A stretch of 64,000 nt of DNA from Halorubrum alkaliphilum (GCF_017873815.1 NZ_JAGGKQ010000005.1:62001-126000); one strand, 5' to 3'; positions 31,032 to 40,503 are shown, counted from the stretch's first letter. Notes: generated by a model from the letters alone, not told the origin. A program made the numbers and translations.

Positions 31032-31172
31032 TCAGAACATCGTGATGATCCCGTACCCGAACAGAACGAGTAGCACGGCAAGCAGCGTGATCAGAACGCG
31101 TCGCTTCGTCACCCGGTTCCGTCGCGGACCGGGATCGGGAACTCGATCGTTCCGGGCTCCGTTCTTTCGCAT
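31032..31172 (-). CDS. Small basic single-pass membrane protein
   Basis: This 46-residue gene begins MRKNGARNDRVPDPGPRRNR, continues with more basic residues, and ends in one hydrophobic helix (VLITLLAVLLVLFGYGIITM). The positively charged N-terminus suggests N-in topology. It is on the same strand as and 45 nt downstream of the last secreted-protein gene of the SipW-type cluster, so it may be the cluster's final gene. It was found by reading the minus strand by eye. No homologue is recognised. Confidence 0.6.
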   Translation of the reverse strand: MRKNGARNDRVPDPGPRRNRVTKRRVLITLLAVLLVLFGYGIITMF

Positions 31173-31217
31173 CAGTACCGTCCCGAAAGGGATCGAACCG
31201 GTGGCCTGGTCGGATCG

Positions 31218-32018
31218 CTATTCATCGCCATTCGATCCGGTCGTAACGTCGCCGTCGTCTCCACCCTCGTTCCACTCGTCATCGCTCTGATCGTCACCGG
31301 CTGTGTCAGCCCCTTGTTCCGCATCGGCACTTTCGTCGGTGTGGTCGTCGGTTTGAGTCCCTTCGTCAGCGTGGTCGCCGGTTTGAGTCCCTTCGTCAGT
31401 GTGGTCGTCGCCCATCTCGGGACCATCATCCTCGTCGGAGTCGTCAATACCCTCATCCGAGGTGCCGTCACTAGGATCGACTTCGTCATCGGAGGCGTCA
31501 TCCTCCGGGTGTGTCGGATCCGAATCGGGGTCCGAAACTGCTGGTTCCGGAGCCGATTTACTGCCGGTCGCGTTCCCAGCCACGGTCTCGTCGTCGCTCT
31601 CGTTACCAACCGTCGACTGCGAGGAATCGCCCTGATCGGACGGCATCTCCTCATCCGGTGCCGATTCGACACTACCCTCGTCCGTCGAGTCCGTTTCGTT
31701 TGTGGGTGGCGTCACCGTTTCGTTTGTGGGTGGCGTCACCGTTTCGTTTGTGGGTGGCGTCACCGTTTCGTTTGTGGGTGGCGTCACCGTCCCGTTGTCG
31801 ATCGTTTCCGCCTCCACGCTCTCGGAACCGTCCGGACCCGCACCGTCGGGGTCGACAATGTTGGACTCCATCTCGTACTCGTGGAACCCGTCCGCGGCCG
31901 TGAAGCTCCCGTCGATGGTGGTCTCGTCCGAGAAGAACGCGACCGTCCCGTACCCGCCCCCGAAGGAGACGGAACAGACGAGGATTGCGACGACTACGAC
32001 CGCTAGGATTCGGGTCAT
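31218..32018 (-). CDS. Secreted acidic repeat protein with SipW-type signal
   Basis: The 266-residue protein opens with a hydrophobic signal (MTRILAVVVVAILVCSVSFG) followed by GYGTVAFFSDETTIDGSFTAAD. The FSDE block is characteristic of SipW/TasA-type precursors. It then has four perfect VTPPTNET repeats, each with an N-glycosylation sequon, and a 150-residue Asp/Glu/Thr/Ser tail with DDHTDEGTQT-type repeats. There is no globular enzyme domain or C-terminal anchor. It overlaps the signal-peptidase gene by 4 nt, so the pair is translationally coupled. It may be a mucin-like surface or matrix component. Confidence 0.75.
   Translation of the reverse strand: MTRILAVVVVAILVCSVSFGGGYGTVAFFSDETTIDGSFTAADGFHEYEMESNIVDPDGAGPDGSESVEAETIDNGTVTPPTNETVTPPTNETVTPPTNETVTPPTNETDSTDEGSVESAPDEEMPSDQGDSSQSTVGNESDDETVAGNATGSKSAPEPAVSDPDSDPTHPEDDASDDEVDPSDGTSDEGIDDSDEDDGPEMGDDHTDEGTQTGDHADEGTQTDDHTDESADAEQGADTAGDDQSDDEWNEGGDDGDVTTGSNGDE
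31693..31788 (-). repeat. Four perfect 24-bp tandem repeats
   Basis: Units 31693-31716, 31717-31740, 31741-31764 and 31765-31788 are identical in DNA. Each encodes eight residues including one NET sequon. Exact identity implies recent expansion or homogenisation, and copy number may vary between strains without changing the frame. Confidence 0.95.
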
Positions 32019-33019
32019 CGCTCCGCCTCATCGGCCCGTCCACCGTCCATCGCGGGCTCTATGACTGGGTCATCGAACACCCCGGGTCGCCTCGAGGAAC
32101 GGTCGTCGTTCTCTGCCGGTCCGTCGTCGTCCGTGGGAGTCACGCCATCGGTGGCCATCGGTTCGCCCGGATCGTCGTCTCGACCACCGAGATCGGCGTC
32201 CTCGACGACATCAGTCGTCTCCGGCGTGGCTGCGCTCGACTCGTTGCCACCGGTGACGAGCAGTACGAGGCCGATGAGTAGTCCCAGCGACGTACCGGTC
32301 GCGACGGCTATCGTGAGCCCGCTTCGAAGCGTGTACGCTACGTACCCGGCGTAGGGTACGAACGCGAGCAGCACTCCGACGGCCCCCTGAACGGTCCGCT
32401 CGGTCACCACGAGCCCGGAGCCGCCGGTCCTTCCGGATTCCGGCGTCTCGGTCGCGCTTTCGTCAGCGTCACCGTCTCCACCGTTTCCGTCGCCTCCGTC
32501 GTTCTCGACTCGGGTTCGCGCCCGATAGAGGTTCCACACCTCTGAGAGCGCGAGGAGCCCGAACGGAACCACGACGAGCGCGATGAACCCCACGGGCGAG
32601 TCGGCGAACTGGATCACGTATCCGAGATACGGGATCGTGAACGCGACGACTCCGAGGACGTTTGCTGCCGGAACCAGTCCGGCGTCTGCCGCATCGTTCG
32701 CATCTCCTTGGGTCTCAAACGCCACCTCGTCCCCGCTGGCGATCACGCCGATGACACGGTGGGTCACTGGCACCTCGTTGTCGCCGCGGACGAACGTGAT
32801 CACGTCGCCCTCGGCGATCGATGACGGGTCGCGCTCGTCGACGATCACGACGTCGCCCGGCGCGATCGCGGGCGTCATGCTCGCCGTGAGCACGACGAAG
32901 CTGTATTCCGCGCCGACGACGGCCGGGACCGCGTACACCACGAAGGGTGCGACGACCGCGATCAGCAGAACGATACCGAGAACGTTAGCGATTCTTCTAA
33001 TTGGTACGTGTGAATTCAT
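32015..33019 (-). CDS. Signal peptidase I, SipW/archaeal (ER) type
   Basis: The 334-residue membrane protein has an N-terminal helix, then the catalytic serine S47 in VVLTASMTPAIAPGDVVIV, the histidine H87 in VPVTHRVIGV (in place of the bacterial lysine), and acidic residues D106/D109 in TQGDANDAADAG. This Ser-His-Asp set is the archaeal and SipW form. Two more helices follow, then an acidic cytosolic-type tail of about 80 residues. It overlaps both neighbours (TAATG upstream, ATGA downstream), so it is embedded in the operon of its presumed substrates. Confidence 0.88.
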   Translation of the reverse strand: MNSHVPIRRIANVLGIVLLIAVVAPFVVYAVPAVVGAEYSFVVLTASMTPAIAPGDVVIVDERDPSSIAEGDVITFVRGDNEVPVTHRVIGVIASGDEVAFETQGDANDAADAGLVPAANVLGVVAFTIPYLGYVIQFADSPVGFIALVVVPFGLLALSEVWNLYRARTRVENDGGDGNGGDGDADESATETPESGRTGGSGLVVTERTVQGAVGVLLAFVPYAGYVAYTLRSGLTIAVATGTSLGLLIGLVLLVTGGNESSAATPETTDVVEDADLGGRDDDPGEPMATDGVTPTDDDGPAENDDRSSRRPGVFDDPVIEPAMDGGRADEAER

Positions 33020-34269
33020 TACAGTTCCTCCAGACCCGATTCACCGGGGTTGTCCGGCTTGCCGGGGTTGTCCGGCTTATCGGGCTTATCCGGCTTACCG
33101 GGGTTGTCCGGTTTGTCAGGGCCGTCCGGCTTGCCGGGTTTGTCCGGCTCGTCAGGGTCCGGATCACGTGGGTCGTCTTCGATCCCGTCAGCCGGATCAC
33201 AGAGCTGCTCCCCGTCGACGGTCGTACCGCTCACGAGCTCGAAGTTCCTGAAGACCATGCCGGGCACAAGCGGCTTCGAGCAACTGGTGTGGATCTTCAC
33301 CCCGTCCGGCTTATCCGAGTTGCCCGAGCTACCCGGATCGGATCCGTCGTCGACGTAGAGGTTCGGACCGATCCAGTTCCCGTCGGTATCGGCCACGTCG
33401 ATCGGGCCTGCGTCGACCGTGAACGTCTGGTCCGGATCGACGGTGTCGTCGAACACGACCGTTCCTCCGTTTCCGACGCCGCCAGCACCACCACCTGTTG
33501 CCGCTGCGACGATCGTTGCGGTCTCTCGTCCGAGGTATTCGAACGTGAGCGAGCCGATCTTCGTCCCGTTCTCGTCCTCACAGAGCACGCAGTCGGGCTT
33601 CTCGGGCTTATCACAGACGCGCCCGGCAAAGGGGTTCGAGTGCTCCGCTGCCGCCTCGGAGACGTGACGACACTGTTCGGTGTAGAGCCGGAGCGTAAGC
33701 GACGCCGAAGTGTTTGCGAACGAGTCGTCGACGTCATCGGGGAGTCGCCATGCGATCTCGAGGTCGATGGACTCGTTCGGTTCGAGACAGCCGTCATCGA
33801 TCCGCTCGCCGGCGACGAGATGTCGTAGTGCGACCGCTAGCGTCCGCCATCCGACCGTAACGGACTCGCCGTTCGCCCGTACGTTCACTTCCAGTGCGTC
33901 CGCAAGGCGATCTCCGGGAGCGGGACACTCGGCGGCGAGCCAGAGTCGCGCGGGGTTGTCTACCACTTCGATCTCGTACTGTTCCGTCCGTGAATCGCCA
34001 CGGTCGATCTCAGCGACACTGAAGCTGAGAGTACCGCTCGGCGCGGGTTCGCCGTCGATCAGAAACGTCACCTCGCCGGCTCCGACTTCGTTGTCCGTAA
34101 GCGACGCCCCGGCGGTGAAGTACGCGGCGGTCCCGGCACCGCTTCCCGCGCCAATCGCGCCGATGCCGCCGAGCCCCGCAAGCAGTCGACGACGACTCAA
34201 CCCGAATGCCGAACCACGGCCTTTTCCGGAGCCGCGGTCGCGGGAGTCTCGGCGTCGATCCGCGGTCAT
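33019..34269 (-). CDS. Secreted TasA-like protein with Pro/Lys/Asp repeat tail
   Basis: The 416-residue protein is read from MTADRRRDSRD, overlapping the previous stop as ATGA. It has a Tat-like twin arginine (LSRRRLLAGLGGIGAIGAG), then AAYFTAGASLTDNEVGAGEVTF, which matches the SipW-cognate region with FSDE changed to FTAG. The beta-rich body shares family blocks with its neighbours (VVDNPARLWLAAECP, NESIDLEIAWRLPDD, LRLYTEQCRHV). A second module has CXXC-type cysteines (KPDCVLCEDENG). The last 60 residues are PGKPD/PDKPDNPGKPD repeats, likely an extended stalk or matrix-binding tail. Confidence 0.78.
   Translation of the reverse strand: MTADRRRDSRDRGSGKGRGSAFGLSRRRLLAGLGGIGAIGAGSGAGTAAYFTAGASLTDNEVGAGEVTFLIDGEPAPSGTLSFSVAEIDRGDSRTEQYEIEVVDNPARLWLAAECPAPGDRLADALEVNVRANGESVTVGWRTLAVALRHLVAGERIDDGCLEPNESIDLEIAWRLPDDVDDSFANTSASLTLRLYTEQCRHVSEAAAEHSNPFAGRVCDKPEKPDCVLCEDENGTKIGSLTFEYLGRETATIVAAATGGGAGGVGNGGTVVFDDTVDPDQTFTVDAGPIDVADTDGNWIGPNLYVDDGSDPGSSGNSDKPDGVKIHTSCSKPLVPGMVFRNFELVSGTTVDGEQLCDPADGIEDDPRDPDPDEPDKPGKPDGPDKPDNPGKPDKPDKPDNPGKPDNPGESGLEEL
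33040..33150 (-). repeat. Degenerate repeats encoding PDKPDNPGKPD
   Basis: On the plus strand the stretch is a series of 9- and 18-nt variants built on ttgtccggcttgccgggg and tatccggctt. It encodes alternating Pro-Asp-Lys/Asn and Pro-Gly-Lys. The copies are diverged, unlike the 24-bp repeats nearby. Confidence 0.8.
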
Positions 34270-35018
34270 GACGATCCCTCCATACTGAACGGACTCTCTG
34301 TCCCGGCACCGCACGGATCGACCCCGAACGTCACGTCGAAGTCGACGGAACCACCACTGCCAGCGTTTCCTCTACCGGTCGGGAACCTCCAGTAGAGCAC
34401 TAGGCAGCGCTGTGCGTCCGGCGTAAGACAACCGTTGTCGAACAATCCTGGGTCGATAAGAACCCCCTCAGCGAGGTCGTCGTCGACGAGGTCGGCGAAG
34501 CTTCCCTCGTAGATCGGCGTACCGAATCCCGAGAAGTCGCCATCCGCACCCTCACAACCCCCCAATCCGAGGAGACCGTCGTCATATCGGAGGTCCACGT
34601 GGAGTCGGTCGGCGAGGTCCCGGCTCGCCGCGTCGGTGCCGATCGTGGGAACTAGGCGCAGCCACGCGCGGAGGCCCTCCTCGATGTCGTCCTCCACTCG
34701 TAGTCCAACGCTCGCGGCTCCTTCGTCGCCGGGGAGCACGTCGTCGAGGTCGATCAGACGGACGTCGGCGACTCCGTCGGCGAAGTCCTCCTCGTCCGTC
34801 GGGCCGTCGACGATCACGTCCGCGGATCTGAAGCCGTTGTACGTCGTCTGCCAGCCGACGAGCAGTCGCCGCCCGTCTCTCTCGGCGTAGGTGTAGTTCG
34901 TGTAGTCGCCCCAGCTGCCCGTGGAACGGCCGCGGATCAGCCCCACGGTCGCGAAGCCGACGGCTCCGACGCCCGCGAGTGCTTGCCTACGTGTCACCTC
35001 GTTGTTTCGGTTACTCAT
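34266..35018 (-). CDS. Secreted protein of the SipW cluster, Tat signal
   Basis: The 250-residue protein starts MSNRNNEVTRRQALAGVGAVGFATVGLI, a twin-arginine signal. The FSDE block of its neighbours is absent: after the hydrophobic stretch it reads IRGRSTGSWGDYTNYTYAERDGRRL. The body keeps the shared pattern: LIDLDDVLPGDEGAASVGLRVED, a loop with GCEGADGDFSG and GLFDNGCLTPDAQRCLVLYWRFPT. It may be a divergent fibre minor subunit using Tat and a different cleavage. It overlaps the next gene by 4 nt. Confidence 0.68.
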   Translation of the reverse strand: MSNRNNEVTRRQALAGVGAVGFATVGLIRGRSTGSWGDYTNYTYAERDGRRLLVGWQTTYNGFRSADVIVDGPTDEEDFADGVADVRLIDLDDVLPGDEGAASVGLRVEDDIEEGLRAWLRLVPTIGTDAASRDLADRLHVDLRYDDGLLGLGGCEGADGDFSGFGTPIYEGSFADLVDDDLAEGVLIDPGLFDNGCLTPDAQRCLVLYWRFPTGRGNAGSGGSVDFDVTFGVDPCGAGTESPFSMEGSS

Positions 35019-35362
35019 TCGTGTGTCTGGTCGGCTCCGGACGGCCGTTCGTCGAAAGTCCTCACGTCACCGCAGTACGTATGTATGCGCCGCCTACCCG
35101 AGCGGTCCGACGACCGAACCGGTCGGAAACCCCGTCTTACCAGTCCCTACTGGGTCGAAGCTCGGGGCCTGTCGGGACCTCCGTGGAGCGGTCCCTGGGC
35201 GGGTTGTTCAAACGGGTTCGTTTCGTCCGTCACCGTCGGATATTGCTTCTGAACTGTTCTTCATCGGCGAACGCCCGCTGGCGGAGTCGAACCGCCGCCA
35301 ACGACCGACCCCATGAGGGTTCGAGCGGGACGCGAACAGCGGAACTGTTCGAAGTCAGCCGT
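35019..35362 (-). other. 344-nt intergenic region in the secretion cluster
   Basis: The gap lies between the vWA-protein stop and the start of the Tat-signal protein, both on the minus strand. It contains the tRNA-like hairpin at 35274-35329, a CAGTAC hexamer at 35073-35078 and an AT-richer patch (acgtatgtatgc, about 35077-35088) close to the downstream start. The downstream gene probably has its own promoter or a processed 5' end here. Confidence 0.5.
35274..35329 (-). other. tRNA-like element: acceptor-type stem plus T-arm
   Basis: On the minus strand CCCGCT (35329-35324) pairs with AGCGGG (35279-35274). Inside it a 5-bp stem GGCGG/CCGCC encloses the loop TTCGACT, as in a tRNA T-arm placed directly before the 3' acceptor strand. 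A further ACCC/GGGT hairpin (35320-35308) occupies the position of another arm. No D-arm or normal anticodon arm can be drawn, so this is not a functional tRNA gene. Confidence 0.55.
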
Positions 35363-37090
35363 CTAGGCTGGCTGCTGCGGCTCCTCGAACGGGTTGTGCG
35401 AGCCCTCGTTGTGGCGGCACTGCTCGGCGTAGAAGTCCAGGTTGAAGACGATCGAATCTCCCTGAATCTCGTTGCCAACCTCGAACGGAAGGTGCCATTC
35501 CAACGCGATACAACGCGTGTCGGAGTTGGGGTAGCACTGTCGCCCGTCGCGGTTCCGGTCCGAATCAAGCGGGTAGCCGCCCGCGATGCCGTCGACCTCG
35601 TAGTCGTCGACGAAGCCGTCGTCGGTGATGTCCGCCCCCTCCGTGAGTAGATCGTACAGCGAGCCCTGGAAGATCGCCTGTTCACCGCCCGCGGTGAAGC
35701 CGATTTCCTCGGCGACGCTCGTGACCGGGTCCGTGTTTGGGTCGGCCGGGCCGTTGATCGCCTGGTCGATGTCCGGATCGGGGACGAGCATGAACTTGTG
35801 GTTGCCCGGGAGCGTGCTGATCTGCTCAAGGGTATTGATATCGTCCCCGAGAACACCGAAGCCGATGACGAGGTACCGATCGACTTCACCGCCGTTCTGT
35901 CGGAGGTTGGCGCTCGCCGGGGCGAGGAAGTCACCTGGGTCGACGTTGATCCCGTTCGTCACGAGGACCATGATCCGGTCTTCGTCTTCCGGGCAGTTGC
36001 TCAGTGCGTCCGCACCGGCTTCGATCGCTAACGGCAGATCGGTCCCCCCGTCAAGTGACTGGTAGTTGATCGTCTGGAGACCAGTGGAGTCGTCGTAGCT
36101 CCCGCCATCATTGCCGATGATGTCGTCAACATCGCTGGTCGGAAGGAGCACAGTATCCGTCTCCGTCGTCCAGTTAGTCAGCCCGACGCTGAACGGGCTG
36201 GTGTCGCCGTCGGAAGACTCCGCACCGTCTTTGGTGTCGAGCCGTCCGACGTACTCCTCAAGTGCCTCGATCAGGAGTTCGTCTTTGAGCTCATCGGTCG
36301 AACCGGGCGCTTGACTCCCCATCGAATCCGTGTTGTCGACGACGAGCTGGATACAGGCACCAGCGCCCTCGTCGAAGAAGTTGTCACAGTCGTCGTCGTA
36401 CCAGAGCGTGGCGTCGATCTCCTTGGCGAACTGCATCTCGGCGTCGGCCGCGTCGATGAGCTCCTGGTCGGACAGATCGTCTCCGTATATTTCCTGAAGT
36501 GCCTCGCGCTTGGGGTCGTTCAGCCCGCCGACGGTGTGCTGGTAGTTGCTCGCGTTCACCCAGAGATACGCCGGGTTGTCGAAGACGTGTTTGCTGATCG
36601 TGATCTCGCCTTTGTCACCGGGTTTCACGTCGTCGAGGTCGATCACGGGGCCGACGAACTCGTGGTTGCCCGTGCCGTCGGTCTCCGTGCCGTCGAAGCT
36701 CGCGAACTGGCCGCGGTAGCCGGCCTCGATCTCCTCGTCGCTCGCGTCCACCGGGAGGCCGACAAGCGTCGGGTCATCCTGTAGCTGGAACCGCGTGTAT
36801 ATCGGGTCTTGGAGGTTGTCGCCGTCCAGATCCGGGTAGGCGTTGATCGGCTCCCACGTGGTGTGGTCGTCCGGCTCCTGTCCGTCAATTCCGGTGTAGT
36901 AGCTCTGCTGCCAGTCCATCCGTAGTTCGACCGCCCCGGCGGTGATCGTGTTGTCCGTGAAGCTCTCCTCGTCGCTGAAGAACGCAGTGGTGCCGAGGCC
37001 CGCGCCGGCGCTCGCGACGCCGATAGCCCCGAGACCGCCGAGCAGTTTTCGGCGGGAGAGGTCGAAGTTGTTGGTGTTGTCGTCTGTCAT
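35363..37090 (-). CDS. Secreted TasA-like protein with nested vWA domain
   Basis: The 575-residue protein has a twin-arginine start (LSRRKLLGGLGAIGVASAGAG), the SipW-cognate block LGTTAFFSDEESFTDNTITAGAVEL and a beta-rich family body. Between FAKEIDATLWYDDDCDNFFD and the closing CIALEWHLPFEVGNEIQGDS lies a von Willebrand A domain (about residues 245-460). Its metal site is DNTDSMGS, a DxTxS variant of MIDAS, and it also carries VLVTNGINVDPGDF. The C-terminus YAEQCRHNEGSHNPF is shared with its neighbours. It likely forms an adhesive or tip subunit of a surface fibre. Confidence 0.82.
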   Translation of the reverse strand: MTDDNTNNFDLSRRKLLGGLGAIGVASAGAGLGTTAFFSDEESFTDNTITAGAVELRMDWQQSYYTGIDGQEPDDHTTWEPINAYPDLDGDNLQDPIYTRFQLQDDPTLVGLPVDASDEEIEAGYRGQFASFDGTETDGTGNHEFVGPVIDLDDVKPGDKGEITISKHVFDNPAYLWVNASNYQHTVGGLNDPKREALQEIYGDDLSDQELIDAADAEMQFAKEIDATLWYDDDCDNFFDEGAGACIQLVVDNTDSMGSQAPGSTDELKDELLIEALEEYVGRLDTKDGAESSDGDTSPFSVGLTNWTTETDTVLLPTSDVDDIIGNDGGSYDDSTGLQTINYQSLDGGTDLPLAIEAGADALSNCPEDEDRIMVLVTNGINVDPGDFLAPASANLRQNGGEVDRYLVIGFGVLGDDINTLEQISTLPGNHKFMLVPDPDIDQAINGPADPNTDPVTSVAEEIGFTAGGEQAIFQGSLYDLLTEGADITDDGFVDDYEVDGIAGGYPLDSDRNRDGRQCYPNSDTRCIALEWHLPFEVGNEIQGDSIVFNLDFYAEQCRHNEGSHNPFEEPQQPA

Positions 37091-37139
37091 TGGTGTATGA
37101 TTGGTCGAAAGTTGTTCGTCTACGTGTCAGCCGATCCGA

Positions 37140-38108
37140 TCACTCGGGGGTGATGTCGTCCACCAGCTCGTCATCGTTGTCGTCGTGGTCGTCGTCATCA
37201 TCGTGATCGTCGTTCTCGTCATCTCCGTTCTCGTCCTCCACGTCGTTCTCGAACGGCGTGTCGTTGTGGCGGCACTGCTCTGCGGCGAAGTGAACGTCAC
37301 CACTGAACGAGGCACCCTGTACGAGGTTGCCGGGCGACATCGACGCATCGACCGCGAACGTGGTCCCGTCGACTTCGACATCCTCGCCGACGTCCGCATG
37401 CGAGGGGAGGTACAGGTAGACGCACACCTCGACGGTGTCCTCGGCAAGTTCGGCGTCCTCGACGTCGGATTCACACGGCAGGTGGCAGTACTCGACGACC
37501 TCGACTTGTTCCTCGGTCTCGGGATCGGTCTCAGTCGTCGCGAGCGCGTGAACGAGACCGCCCTCGTCCCACTCGTCGATGAGGCCACCGAGAGTGCCCT
37601 GGAACACGATCTCTTCGCTGTCGCCGGCCTGCTGGTCGTCGATGGTGACGACCGCGAGCATGTACTCGCTGAGCAGGCCGGAGGCGTCGGTGTGGGTGAC
37701 GCCGTTGTCGTTTCCGGTCGATTCATCGCCGTCGAGCGTGATCTGGACGTAGCCGGGGTTGTGTTTCACACAGATGTCCCAGCAGTACTTGTAGGAGTCG
37801 CCGGGCTTCGCGTCCTCGATGTCGAGGAACCCGTCGAGGACTTCGACCGTTTCGTCCTCCGCTTGGGCGGCCGCCAGCATCTCGTCGAACCTCCCCTCGT
37901 CCGGGCCGATCCCGTCTTGGTCGACCATGTGCGTCGACTGGGTGACGTGTAGCTCGAACTGCCCGGCCGTGATCGTGTTGTCCTGGAACGACTCCTCGTC
38001 GCTGAAGAACGCCGTCGTTCCGAGTCCCGCACCCGCGGAGGCAACGCCGACTGCCCCGAGTCCGACCAGCACTTTACGCCGCGAGAGTCCGATGTTTGTG
38101 TCTTCCAT
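37140..38108 (-). CDS. Secreted TasA-like protein, Asp/His-rich tail
   Basis: The 322-residue protein starts with a twin-arginine signal (GLSRRKVLVGLGAVGVASAGAG) and the SipW-cognate block LGTTAFFSDEESFQDNTITAGQFEL. The body contains LDIEDAKPGDSYKYCWDICVKHNPGYV and ends with the shared HFAAEQCRHNDTPFEND. The last 35 residues are nearly all Asp, Glu, His and Asn, possibly a calcium- or metal-binding tail. The next gene starts 49 nt away, so co-transcription is likely. Confidence 0.8.
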   Translation of the reverse strand: MEDTNIGLSRRKVLVGLGAVGVASAGAGLGTTAFFSDEESFQDNTITAGQFELHVTQSTHMVDQDGIGPDEGRFDEMLAAAQAEDETVEVLDGFLDIEDAKPGDSYKYCWDICVKHNPGYVQITLDGDESTGNDNGVTHTDASGLLSEYMLAVVTIDDQQAGDSEEIVFQGTLGGLIDEWDEGGLVHALATTETDPETEEQVEVVEYCHLPCESDVEDAELAEDTVEVCVYLYLPSHADVGEDVEVDGTTFAVDASMSPGNLVQGASFSGDVHFAAEQCRHNDTPFENDVEDENGDDENDDHDDDDDHDDNDDELVDDITPE

Positions 38109-38132
38109 TGTGTATCATCCCCTGTGGGGAAC

Positions 38133-38172
38133 TCCCACCGACGGAGTCGAACCGTCGGACGCCACTGTGGGA
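38133..38172 (-). other. tRNA-like minihelix between two secreted-protein genes
   Basis: On the minus strand TCCCAC (38172-38167) pairs with GTGGGA (38138-38133). Directly nested is GACGG-TTCGACT-CCGTC, extendable to 7 bp, with the classic T-loop sequence. This is the coaxial acceptor/T-arm shape of a tRNA minihelix. It lies 25 nt before the next gene's start. A second hairpin, GAGTTCGG with CCGAACTC, lies just upstream after the previous stop and may be a terminator. Confidence 0.55.
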
Positions 38173-38217
38173 AGGTGAGTTCGGCGATGACGCGCCACCG
38201 AACTCGGTCAGGCGAGG

Positions 38218-39591
38218 CTACTGGAGCGTCGCGCTCTGCCCGCTCTGGCTACTGGTGAAGTTGTCATTGGCGTTGTAGGGGCCGCCAACGGGGATACCGA
38301 CGGACGGCGCTTCACCACCGGCACTCGCGCCAAAGCCGAAGACGTAGTCGTTGCCGCCGGTTTCGAGGTCGGATCGCGGGACGGCGATGACCGCCTGAGA
38401 ACCGAATTTAACGGCAGTGATCGTCGACGGAACCGGCGACCACGGTCCAACGTCCTTCTCCCAGTTGGGTGTGCCGTCCACCTCGGAGTAGAGGAAGTCA
38501 TCCCCGCCCTCTGCGTTCCAGGCGACCTGGTAGTCGTAGTTGCCGCTGTCGTCGAGGTCGAACGGCATCGAGAAGTTGGCGGCCGCGAAGTTCGGGTCGG
38601 CGAGGCTGTACTGACTCCCGGCGGGTTCGTCGAAGGTGATCCCGTAGAGGACCTGCTCGTCGCCGTAGGAGACGTCTACGCGGGCGATGCCGTCCGGAAT
38701 GGGCTGGCTGATGCCGTCGCGGTTGACGTAGTCCGCCGCGTACGACTCGTCCGCACACGGGTTGTTCGTCCCGTCGTTGTGGCGCTCCTGTTCCGCGTAG
38801 AACTCGAAGTTGAAATCGACGGAGTCTGACTGGATCTCGTTGCCGACCGTCGTGGGAACCTCCCACTCGAAGCAGACGCACGTCTCGTGAACGTTCGGTT
38901 CACCGTCAACGAACGGCTCTTCGACGCCGTCGAAAGCGGGGCGGTTCGCCACGGGCTGGTCCGGGTTGCCGTCGCCGTAGAGTGAAACGCCGGTCTGGAG
39001 CGCTGCCATTACCTCAGCGAGCGAGCCGGAGATGATCTCCGCGCCGGTGTTTCCGTCCTCGTCGCAGTACGACACGGTGATCTCCATCGCGTCCGCGAGC
39101 TGGCCGTCCTCCGGAATCTCGCCGAACAGCTCATCGAGGGCGGCCTCCTCGGGGTCGTTCGTTCCGTTCTGGTCGTTCGCGGTCAACTCCCCGCACATCC
39201 ACATGTACGCGGGGTTGTCGACGATGGAGAAACAGAACTCCCCCTCGCCGGAGTCGCCGGGCTTCAGGTCCTCTACGTGGATGCTGAGCGGTTCGCCGGG
39301 GACGACTCCGCTGGTATCCTCACCGTTCACACCGGCCAAACCGCCGTTGATGAACGTACCTGCGGGAGTGGAATACTGTGCGAACGAGCCCTGGTCCTCC
39401 GAGTAGTCGACGTGAACGAACAGATCGAGCTCGCCCGCCGTGAGAGTGTTCTCCTCGAAGCTTTCCTCGTCACTGAAATACGCCGTCGTTCCGAGTCCCG
39501 CACCCGCGGAGGCCACGCCCACGATGCCGAGTCCGCCGAGCATCTGTCGCCGCGAGAGTCCGAAGTCCGAAGTGGTGTCGTCGTTAGTCAT
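38218..39591 (-). CDS. Secreted TasA-like protein, first gene of the cluster
   Basis: The 457-residue protein begins with a twin-arginine signal (GLSRRQMLGGLGIVGVASAGAG) and the SipW-cognate block LGTTAYFSDEESFEENTLTAGELDL. The N-terminal fibre-like domain runs to FNFEFYAEQERHNDGTNNPCAD (about residue 280). An extra C-terminal beta domain of about 175 residues follows (IARVDVSYGDEQVLYGITF and on), without a recognised name. It is the most upstream member, behind a 390-nt divergent promoter region, and is a good candidate for the main fibre subunit. Confidence 0.8.
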   Translation of the reverse strand: MTNDDTTSDFGLSRRQMLGGLGIVGVASAGAGLGTTAYFSDEESFEENTLTAGELDLFVHVDYSEDQGSFAQYSTPAGTFINGGLAGVNGEDTSGVVPGEPLSIHVEDLKPGDSGEGEFCFSIVDNPAYMWMCGELTANDQNGTNDPEEAALDELFGEIPEDGQLADAMEITVSYCDEDGNTGAEIISGSLAEVMAALQTGVSLYGDGNPDQPVANRPAFDGVEEPFVDGEPNVHETCVCFEWEVPTTVGNEIQSDSVDFNFEFYAEQERHNDGTNNPCADESYAADYVNRDGISQPIPDGIARVDVSYGDEQVLYGITFDEPAGSQYSLADPNFAAANFSMPFDLDDSGNYDYQVAWNAEGGDDFLYSEVDGTPNWEKDVGPWSPVPSTITAVKFGSQAVIAVPRSDLETGGNDYVFGFGASAGGEAPSVGIPVGGPYNANDNFTSSQSGQSATLQ

Positions 39592-39981
39592 GATGGTCGC
39601 TGGCGGTACTGCCAGTACCCCCTCCTTAGCGGAAGGGGGGATAGTTACGACTCGACACGTCGGATCCTAACGCCGCCATCGACGAGACTAACGACACGTT
39701 CGGACTGAAACGGGTGTTTTCGAGCGATCAGATCCCACGTTCCCGATCCGGATGGGGACCGGTACTGCCCGAGGGGGTGTCGCCTACCGCCGCGGTTCGC
39801 GACCCATACCGCTCGCGTGTGGGTGTGCCTGTCGTGTCGTCCGAGCCACCCTACCGGATCGCGTGGGGAGAGCTACCGGCGACTCAAGCACAGGCGTGGT
39901 ATCATGACACATACCAGTACGCGGTACATAGATATCTCCCCTCCAGTCGTGGCTCCCGGTATCGAGGTGTTATACCGCTCA
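39592..39981. promoter_or_regulatory. Divergent control region of the secretion cluster
   Basis: 390 nt separate the first TasA-like gene from the winged-helix regulator. It holds a near-perfect palindrome GGTACTG-C-CAGTACC (39605-39619), a second GGTACTGCC (39761-39769) and CAGTAC (39915-39920). A C-rich/G-rich inverted repeat lies around 39619-39640 in the leader of the minus-strand gene. A TATA-like gtacatagatatct (about 39924-39937) faces the regulator. Confidence 0.5.
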
Positions 39982-40503
39982 ATGCAGATCCGATCCGAAA
40001 CGCTCCCGGAGACCGTCATCCACGATCTCCTCTCGAACAGCCGCCGAAAGAACGCGCTCCGCGAGCTGCGGACCCGCGGCGGGACGGTCACCGTCCGGGA
40101 GCTCTCAGAGGCGATAGCCGCCGCCGAGACCGGAACGAGTCCGGCACCCGCCTGCGTCCGCGAGAGCGTGTACGCCTCGCTCCACCAGACGCACCTCCCG
40201 CGACTCCACGAGCTGGGCGTCGTCGAATACGACCGGACGCGCAAGGAAGTCCGGACGTGTCGCGGGGCGCGCGACGTGGGACGCTACATGGAAGTCATCT
40301 CCGGCTACGGCGTCACGTGGACGGAGCTGTACCAAGTGCTCGGCGTCGTGACGCTGCTCGTCGTGTTGGCCGCCCAGCTCGACGCTCCCCTTATTAGTGC
40401 GATCGACCCGATACTCTGGACCAGCGGGTCGCTCGCGGTGTTCGCGGCCGTGACGGTCGTCCAACTGTGGCGAGCGTTCCGGATCTCAACGCTCCTTCAG
40501 TGA
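39982..40503 (+). CDS. DUF7344-type winged-helix regulator with two membrane helices
   Basis: The 173-residue protein is read from MQIRSETLPETVIHDLL; an ATG at 39904 would add 26 residues without family features and sits before the TATA element. The N-terminal domain (LLSNSRRKNALRELRTRGGTVTVRELSEAIA, then ESVYASLHQTHLPRLHELGVVEYD) is the haloarchaeal DUF7344-type winged helix. Two hydrophobic helices (about 115-165) anchor it in the membrane. It faces away from the TasA-like cluster and is the natural candidate for its regulator. Confidence 0.75.
   Translation: MQIRSETLPETVIHDLLSNSRRKNALRELRTRGGTVTVRELSEAIAAAETGTSPAPACVRESVYASLHQTHLPRLHELGVVEYDRTRKEVRTCRGARDVGRYMEVISGYGVTWTELYQVLGVVTLLVVLAAQLDAPLISAIDPILWTSGSLAVFAAVTVVQLWRAFRISTLLQ

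Follow-up and report, generated by a model that had tools for sequence, protein, structure and literature searches.

The question raised by this locus was whether haloarchaea possess a counterpart of the TasA/SipW fibre system of bacteria. It lies in Halorubrum alkaliphilum, within a window of 64,000 nucleotides (GCF_017873815.1, NZ_JAGGKQ010000005.1:62001-126000) to which all positions refer. In agreement with the initial annotation, which had placed a gene for a Ser-His-Asp signal peptidase among six genes for secreted proteins, seven co-directional genes (A, B, C, D, E, S and F, S encoding the peptidase) were found to be open on the minus strand, from 39591 to 31218. The locus probably encodes a haloarchaeal TasA/SipW-type system whose subunits would form fibres; this was indicated by fold matches, homology of a shared module, the pattern of cleavage and donor-strand motifs, a peptidase of the endoplasmic reticulum (ER) type, co-occurrence and conserved gene order. 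The features concerned are listed here.

38218-39591, minus: A (457 amino acids); twin-arginine (RR) signal peptide, SipW-type site, TasA-like domain and immunoglobulin-like (Ig-like) C-terminal domain (PF12389, TIGR04088, fold matches).
39421-39480, minus: predicted mature N-terminus of A, YFSDEESFEENTLTAGELDL, putative counterpart of the TasA donor strand (alignment with TasA numbering; low predicted local distance difference test score, pLDDT).
37140-38108, minus: B (322 amino acids); RR signal peptide, donor block at 37950-38009, TasA-like domain and acidic tail (TIGR04088, own-genome search with the A module).
35363-37090, minus: C (575 amino acids); TasA-like domain with an inserted vWA domain, donor block at 36923-36982 (profile of the A module).
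35771-36346, minus: vWA domain of C with a DxTxS metal-site motif (DNTDS); weak in C, strong in the family.
34266-35018, minus: D (250 amino acids); RR signal peptide and TasA-like domain without a donor block, possible cap (profile, fold, block score).
33019-34269, minus: E (416 amino acids, counted from the ATG at 34269); RR signal peptide, degenerate donor block, TasA-like domain, DUF7467 and stalk (profile, PF24269, repeats).
32015-33019, minus: S (334 amino acids); SipW-like signal peptidase I with Ser47, His87 and Asp106 (TIGR02228, invariant residues).
31218-32018, minus: F (266 amino acids); Sec-type SipW-like signal, donor-like block at 31878-31937 and acidic low-complexity tail, possible starter (TIGR04088 near the cut-off, shuffles).
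39817-40503, plus: divergent DUF7344 protein with a helix-turn-helix-like domain and C-terminal hydrophobic segments, probable regulator (PF24035, 93.2 bits); its start codon is uncertain and 39817 is that of the longest reading frame.

Five of the six secreted proteins (A to E) have one domain in common. Structure prediction, which the initial annotation had named as a test able to refute its TasA/SipW-like reading of the locus, was carried out on A and D, and TasA was the best solved match. The model of A, built from 54 homologues, had a pLDDT of about 90 or more across most of residues 100-290 and below 50 for residues 1-46, which take in the signal peptide and the start of the mature chain; a TasA-like domain (residues ~51-290) was followed by the Ig-like domain (~300-440). 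When this model was compared with 350,542 PDB chains using Foldseek, the single match at E≤0.001 was the TasA fibre 8aur (E = 1e-4, TM-score 0.43 by target length). VIA-align ranked TasA first (5of1, Z 9.4, root-mean-square deviation 3.4 over 153 residues), second (5of2, Z 9.1, 3.3 over 148 residues) and fourth (8aur, Z 8.2), most other rows matching the immunoglobulin-like sandwich at residues 300-440. For D, which was matched by no Pfam or NCBIfam model, TasA occupied ranks 1 to 3 (Z 8.2, 8.2 and 7.8), and no Foldseek match was obtained at E≤0.001. A Z value near 8 may on its own reflect a common arrangement; TasA is supported because it heads the list for two homologous models. A PDB sequence search was rejected as proof of the link, sialoadhesin having scored as well as or better than TasA, and this indecisive result was the reason that folds were compared instead.

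Profiles of D and E were compared with that of A using the mature domains only, lest the signal peptides drive the matches. D matched at 99.5% (E = 2.6e-22) and E at 99.6% (E = 3.1e-24), compared to 0.1% for the peptidase control, and the mature domains of D and E are accordingly scored as homologous to that of A. The TasA jelly-roll was thus assigned to A and D by fold match, to C and E by profile and to B by sequence only. D had been described as a small membrane protein; it is instead TasA-like.

The second line of evidence was a near-identical block, TTA(F/Y)FSDEESF, reported initially for three of the proteins with related versions in two others. This was borne out: the block is GTTAYFSDEESF in A and GTTAFFSDEESF in both B and C, with related blocks in E (GTAAYFTAGASL) and F (GTVAFFSDETTI). 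At the DNA level it forms a family of 145-nt repeats, 78-80% identical, at 36924, 37951 and 39422 (in C, B and A, respectively). TIGR04088, the model of the SipW-dependent-type signal peptide, scored above its cut-off in A, B and C (27.4 bits for B) and narrowly below the cut-off of 19 in F (18.7 bits); a whole-genome scan with it, taken to E = 1, gave five matches, none of them outside the locus. In A the block YFSDEESFEENTLTAGELDL begins immediately past GTTA and keeps the pattern F.D......(F/L).(S/A)G.LDL. A, B, C and F have Phe at P2', as is typical for SipW substrates. The donor strand of TasA comprises residues 28-38, with contacts at F29, I32 and F39 (PMC9674648), and TasA has Phe at P2', which makes for poor cleavage by Escherichia coli LepB, and is processed by SipW, an ER-type enzyme (PMC10269814). 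Since the block starts right after GTTA with a TasA-like pattern and a P2' Phe, we infer that it combines a SipW-type cleavage site with the counterpart of the TasA donor strand. The arrangement of the site directly ahead of the donor-strand motif was clear in A, B and C, weaker in E and F, and missing from D. A C-terminal motif of the AEQCRHN type, said to be common to the secreted proteins, was present in A (AEQERHND), B, C and E (TEQCRHVS) and was not found in D or F; it is predicted to be the end of the TasA-like domain, where TasA has FEATQ.

To quantify the block, a position-specific donor-block score was built from 148 distinct blocks of A, B and C homologues, which themselves scored at least 12.8. 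B scored 52, E -2 and F -6.3; comparison with shuffles gave p = 0.0005 for F and p≤0.05 for the donor-like block in 12 of its 14 homologues. The D of the window scored -39.9, and the best windows of D homologues scored -25 or lower. By these scores F resembles a strand without the fold and D the fold without a strand.

The same observations bear on whether the proteins polymerise. They might have the TasA fold and be cut by the peptidase, and yet act as monomeric secreted or surface-bound adhesins and matrix proteins that form no fibre. Large extra domains (vWA, Ig-like and stalk) would be unusual in a packed fibre, and there are several paralogues per locus in place of one repeated subunit. 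In contrast, homologues of A, B and C retain the donor block (148 distinct versions), which starts precisely at the cleavage site, and the first mature residues of the A model were unordered, as expected for a strand destined for a partner. A monomeric function is consequently considered unlikely, and fibre formation was retained as the preferred reading.

The peptidase was examined in the same way. S scored 110.3 bits with TIGR02228, the archaeal/ER-type signal peptidase I model (cut-off 51.85), and S47, H87, R88, G105 and D106 were invariant across 23 homologues; on this alignment S is assigned ER-type catalytic residues. Three further signal-peptidase-like genes of the genome all fell under the TIGR02228 cut-off. 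Among 195 genomes of the order, the peptidase was present in 69, and the 62 genomes with an A-like protein were all among these; seven had the peptidase only and 126 had neither (Fisher p = 2e-43, with genomes treated as independent despite their relatedness). Since every genome with an A-like protein also has S, the peptidase is predicted to be dedicated to the TasA-like subunits. The proposal that a SipW-like peptidase belongs with these subunits therefore gained support from both gene order and presence or absence.

Gene order was assessed in 69 loci from named genomes, which were fetched through the A-like module, so that the counts describe the company of the module and not its presence. 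S was in the same gene run in 59 of 65 loci, and in 57 of 63 a divergent DUF7344 gene was no more than 2.5 kb away, at a median of 343 bp. In 41 of 58 loci an F-like gene began where S ends or close by; of 46 pattern hits, five were discounted because they looked like RR-type proteins or proteins of other kinds. The usual order across many genera was the DUF7344 gene, then A/B/C-like genes, D, E, S and F. The probable DUF7344 regulator thus belongs to the set, and its membership is new, while the family is not exclusive to surface loci: a copy on another contig of the same genome (C3) had no recognisable neighbours of this kind. The MptE-like and creatininase-like genes that flank the cluster were not kept with it in other loci. 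In the window, overlaps of 4 bases (ATGA) between D and E, 1 base (TAATG) between E and S and 4 bases (ATGA) between S and F suggest coupled translation; the overlapping stops and starts noted initially are confined to these three junctions, the others being gaps of 109 nt (A-B), 49 nt (B-C) and 344 nt (C-D).

Variants of the arrangement were also recorded. In some Halobellus loci (L100, L103 and L116) an RR protein with a GSGVAAMLTDTE block follows the peptidase in place of an F-like gene. Some genomes carry two such clusters (L066, L100 and the SHRA6 loci L067/L083), the pair at L066 being convergent on one contig. The leader that separates A from the DUF7344 gene contains a GC-rich inverted repeat, CCCCCTCCTTAGCGGAAGGGGGG, at 39610-39645 of the window.

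The export route was then considered. As initially stated, most of the substrates carry a twin-arginine motif, which was present in A to E and not in F. The accompanying claim that twin-arginine translocation (Tat) combined with SipW-type cleavage is unusual was not borne out for haloarchaea, the pairing of the two signals being the norm there: RR was present in 313 of 326 haloarchaeal subunit homologues. In contrast, signals of the general secretory (Sec) type were carried by 18 A-like proteins of seven genomes elsewhere in the phylum, with the exception of one RR protein (L163:1260-1892) whose surroundings do not resemble those in haloarchaea. Because RR is so prevalent in haloarchaeal subunits and mostly absent in other groups of the phylum, the pairing appears to reflect a switch of export route in haloarchaea rather than a peculiarity of this locus. 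It could be argued that the RR is a mere n-region feature and that the subunits leave by Sec, as TasA does; the mostly Sec-like homologues of other groups, the lack of RR in F and a score of about 12 bits with the Tat model TIGR01409 (cut-off 16.7) would all fit. Sec export is nevertheless judged improbable, given the prevalence of RR, its invariance in alignments A2, A3, A5, A6 and A7, and the 39-55% of secreted proteins that haloarchaea send by Tat (PMC2945643).

PF12389 (TasA/CalY) was matched by A with 25.3 bits (cut-off 22.5) and by 41 of its 54 homologues at E≤0.001, B and C being below the cut-off; an own-genome search at E≤0.001 was empty owing to its settings and not to absence, A passing the bit cut-off. 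Although the name of this family, Peptidase_M73, and these matches would suggest camelysin-type metallo-endopeptidases, that explanation is scarcely credible, as the match spans only residues 32-60, within the signal peptide and donor region, TasA, a structural protein and the best fold match, is itself a member of the family, and no metal-protease motif was seen.

Several points weigh against the TasA/SipW-type reading. The fold scores are moderate (Z near 8-9, TM-score 0.43), and the link of the A module to TasA by sequence alone is weak (E = 0.0014). S scored 117.6 bits with NF046067, the Bacillus SipW equivalog, short of the cut-off of 190, and for this reason it is termed SipW-like and not SipW. 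The roles proposed for D and F derive from motifs, and the N-terminal strand of D might yet take part in exchange.

If the TasA/SipW-type reading is correct, subunits with Tat-type signals would leave the cell already folded, and S would cut after GT(T/S)A, exactly at the start of the donor strand. Once freed by cleavage, this strand would complete the following subunit's sandwich, so that cleavage would act as the assembly trigger. With less certainty, F, a donor-like block on an acidic tail without a fold, may start or anchor the fibre in the manner of TapA, and D, a fold without a donor strand, may end it; this assignment of starter and cap is tentative, with the chances somewhat against it. 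The vWA domain of C, the stalk of E and the extra domain of A might be displayed for adhesion, and the DUF7344 protein may control expression, also with less certainty. Taken jointly, Tat-folded export, peptidase-triggered donor-strand assembly, a start at F, an end at D and control by a membrane-bound DUF7344 protein make up a scheme that is doubtful as a whole.

TasA fibres hold together the biofilms of bacteria. Compared with the TasA-TapA-SipW biofilm fibre of Bacillus subtilis (5of1, 5of2 and 8aur), the locus is alike in subunit fold, in an operon with an ER-type signal peptidase, in SipW-type cleavage with P2' Phe and in a donor strand at the mature N-terminus. It differs in having several different subunits, twin-arginine signals, a divergent DUF7344 gene and extra domains (vWA inside the fold, Ig-like, DUF7467 with stalk). 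In B. subtilis the first donor strand is proposed to be supplied to TasA by TapA (PMC9674648); no TapA homologue turned up in the searches made, none of which was a sequence comparison aimed at TapA. The AbpA bundling pili of Pyrobaculum calidifontis (7ueg) are likewise archaeal TasA-like donor-strand fibres, and D matched 7ueg by VIA-align (Z 6.2, rank 8), while 7ueg was not among the matches listed for A; AbpA differs in being a single subunit of ~180 ordered residues from a different phylum. Minimal loci in other groups of the same phylum (L159-L165) had the same block and an adjoining SipW-like peptidase in seven of seven cases, but their subunits were mostly of 200-310 amino acids with Sec-like signals and no vWA module was noticed in them.

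A haloarchaeal TasA-type system was not described in the literature searched, many subscription papers being beyond reach, and the same literature held nothing on SipW with Haloferax or on DUF7344; the RefSeq names in an annotated copy are 'SipW-dependent-type signal peptide-containing protein', 'signal peptidase I' and 'hypothetical protein'. The proposed system would account for multi-gene surface loci of a kind that many haloarchaeal genera carry and would extend TasA-like fibres to organisms of which some are culturable and genetically tractable. It also poses the question of how fibre growth through exchange of strands is reconciled with export of the subunits in folded form; if true, exporting donor-strand subunits in that form would be a different solution from the chaperones of chaperone-usher pili.

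The extra domains agreed in part with the initial annotation. The vWA-bearing subunit is C: its vWA domain was weak in itself (18 bits, E = 0.0036, PF00092 cut-off 23.8) and was matched by the model in 34 of 42 C homologues at E≤0.001. Since the A-domain profile aligned on either side of it (E = 1.2e-72), the vWA domain sits inside the TasA-like fold. The stalked subunit is E, which has a Pro/Asp/Lys-rich stalk at ~33027-33161 and DUF7467 at ~33229-33495 (PF24269, 34.1 bits). For the acidic mucin-like protein, F, the acidic low-complexity tail was confirmed, and the protein is better read as a candidate donor-strand-only starter. Identical 24-nt tandem repeats encoding TNETVTPP units were observed in F at 31691-31810 of the window.

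The same genome holds a second surface locus (L144, G000:C23:3000-17000), in which a signal peptidase, DUF5305 and a DUF1102/CARDB protein accompany a DUF7344 gene and RR proteins that are relatives of PDB 9p0a ('Pilin'). It resembles the present locus in its RR-type signals and nearby DUF7344 and signal peptidase genes, and differs in that its peptidase had no match to S at E≤0.001 and its subunits belong to another family (L144:1322-1960 to 9p0a, E = 1.9e-7) with DUF1102 and DUF5305 partners. The combination of DUF7344, a signal peptidase and RR subunits thus recurs with another subunit family.

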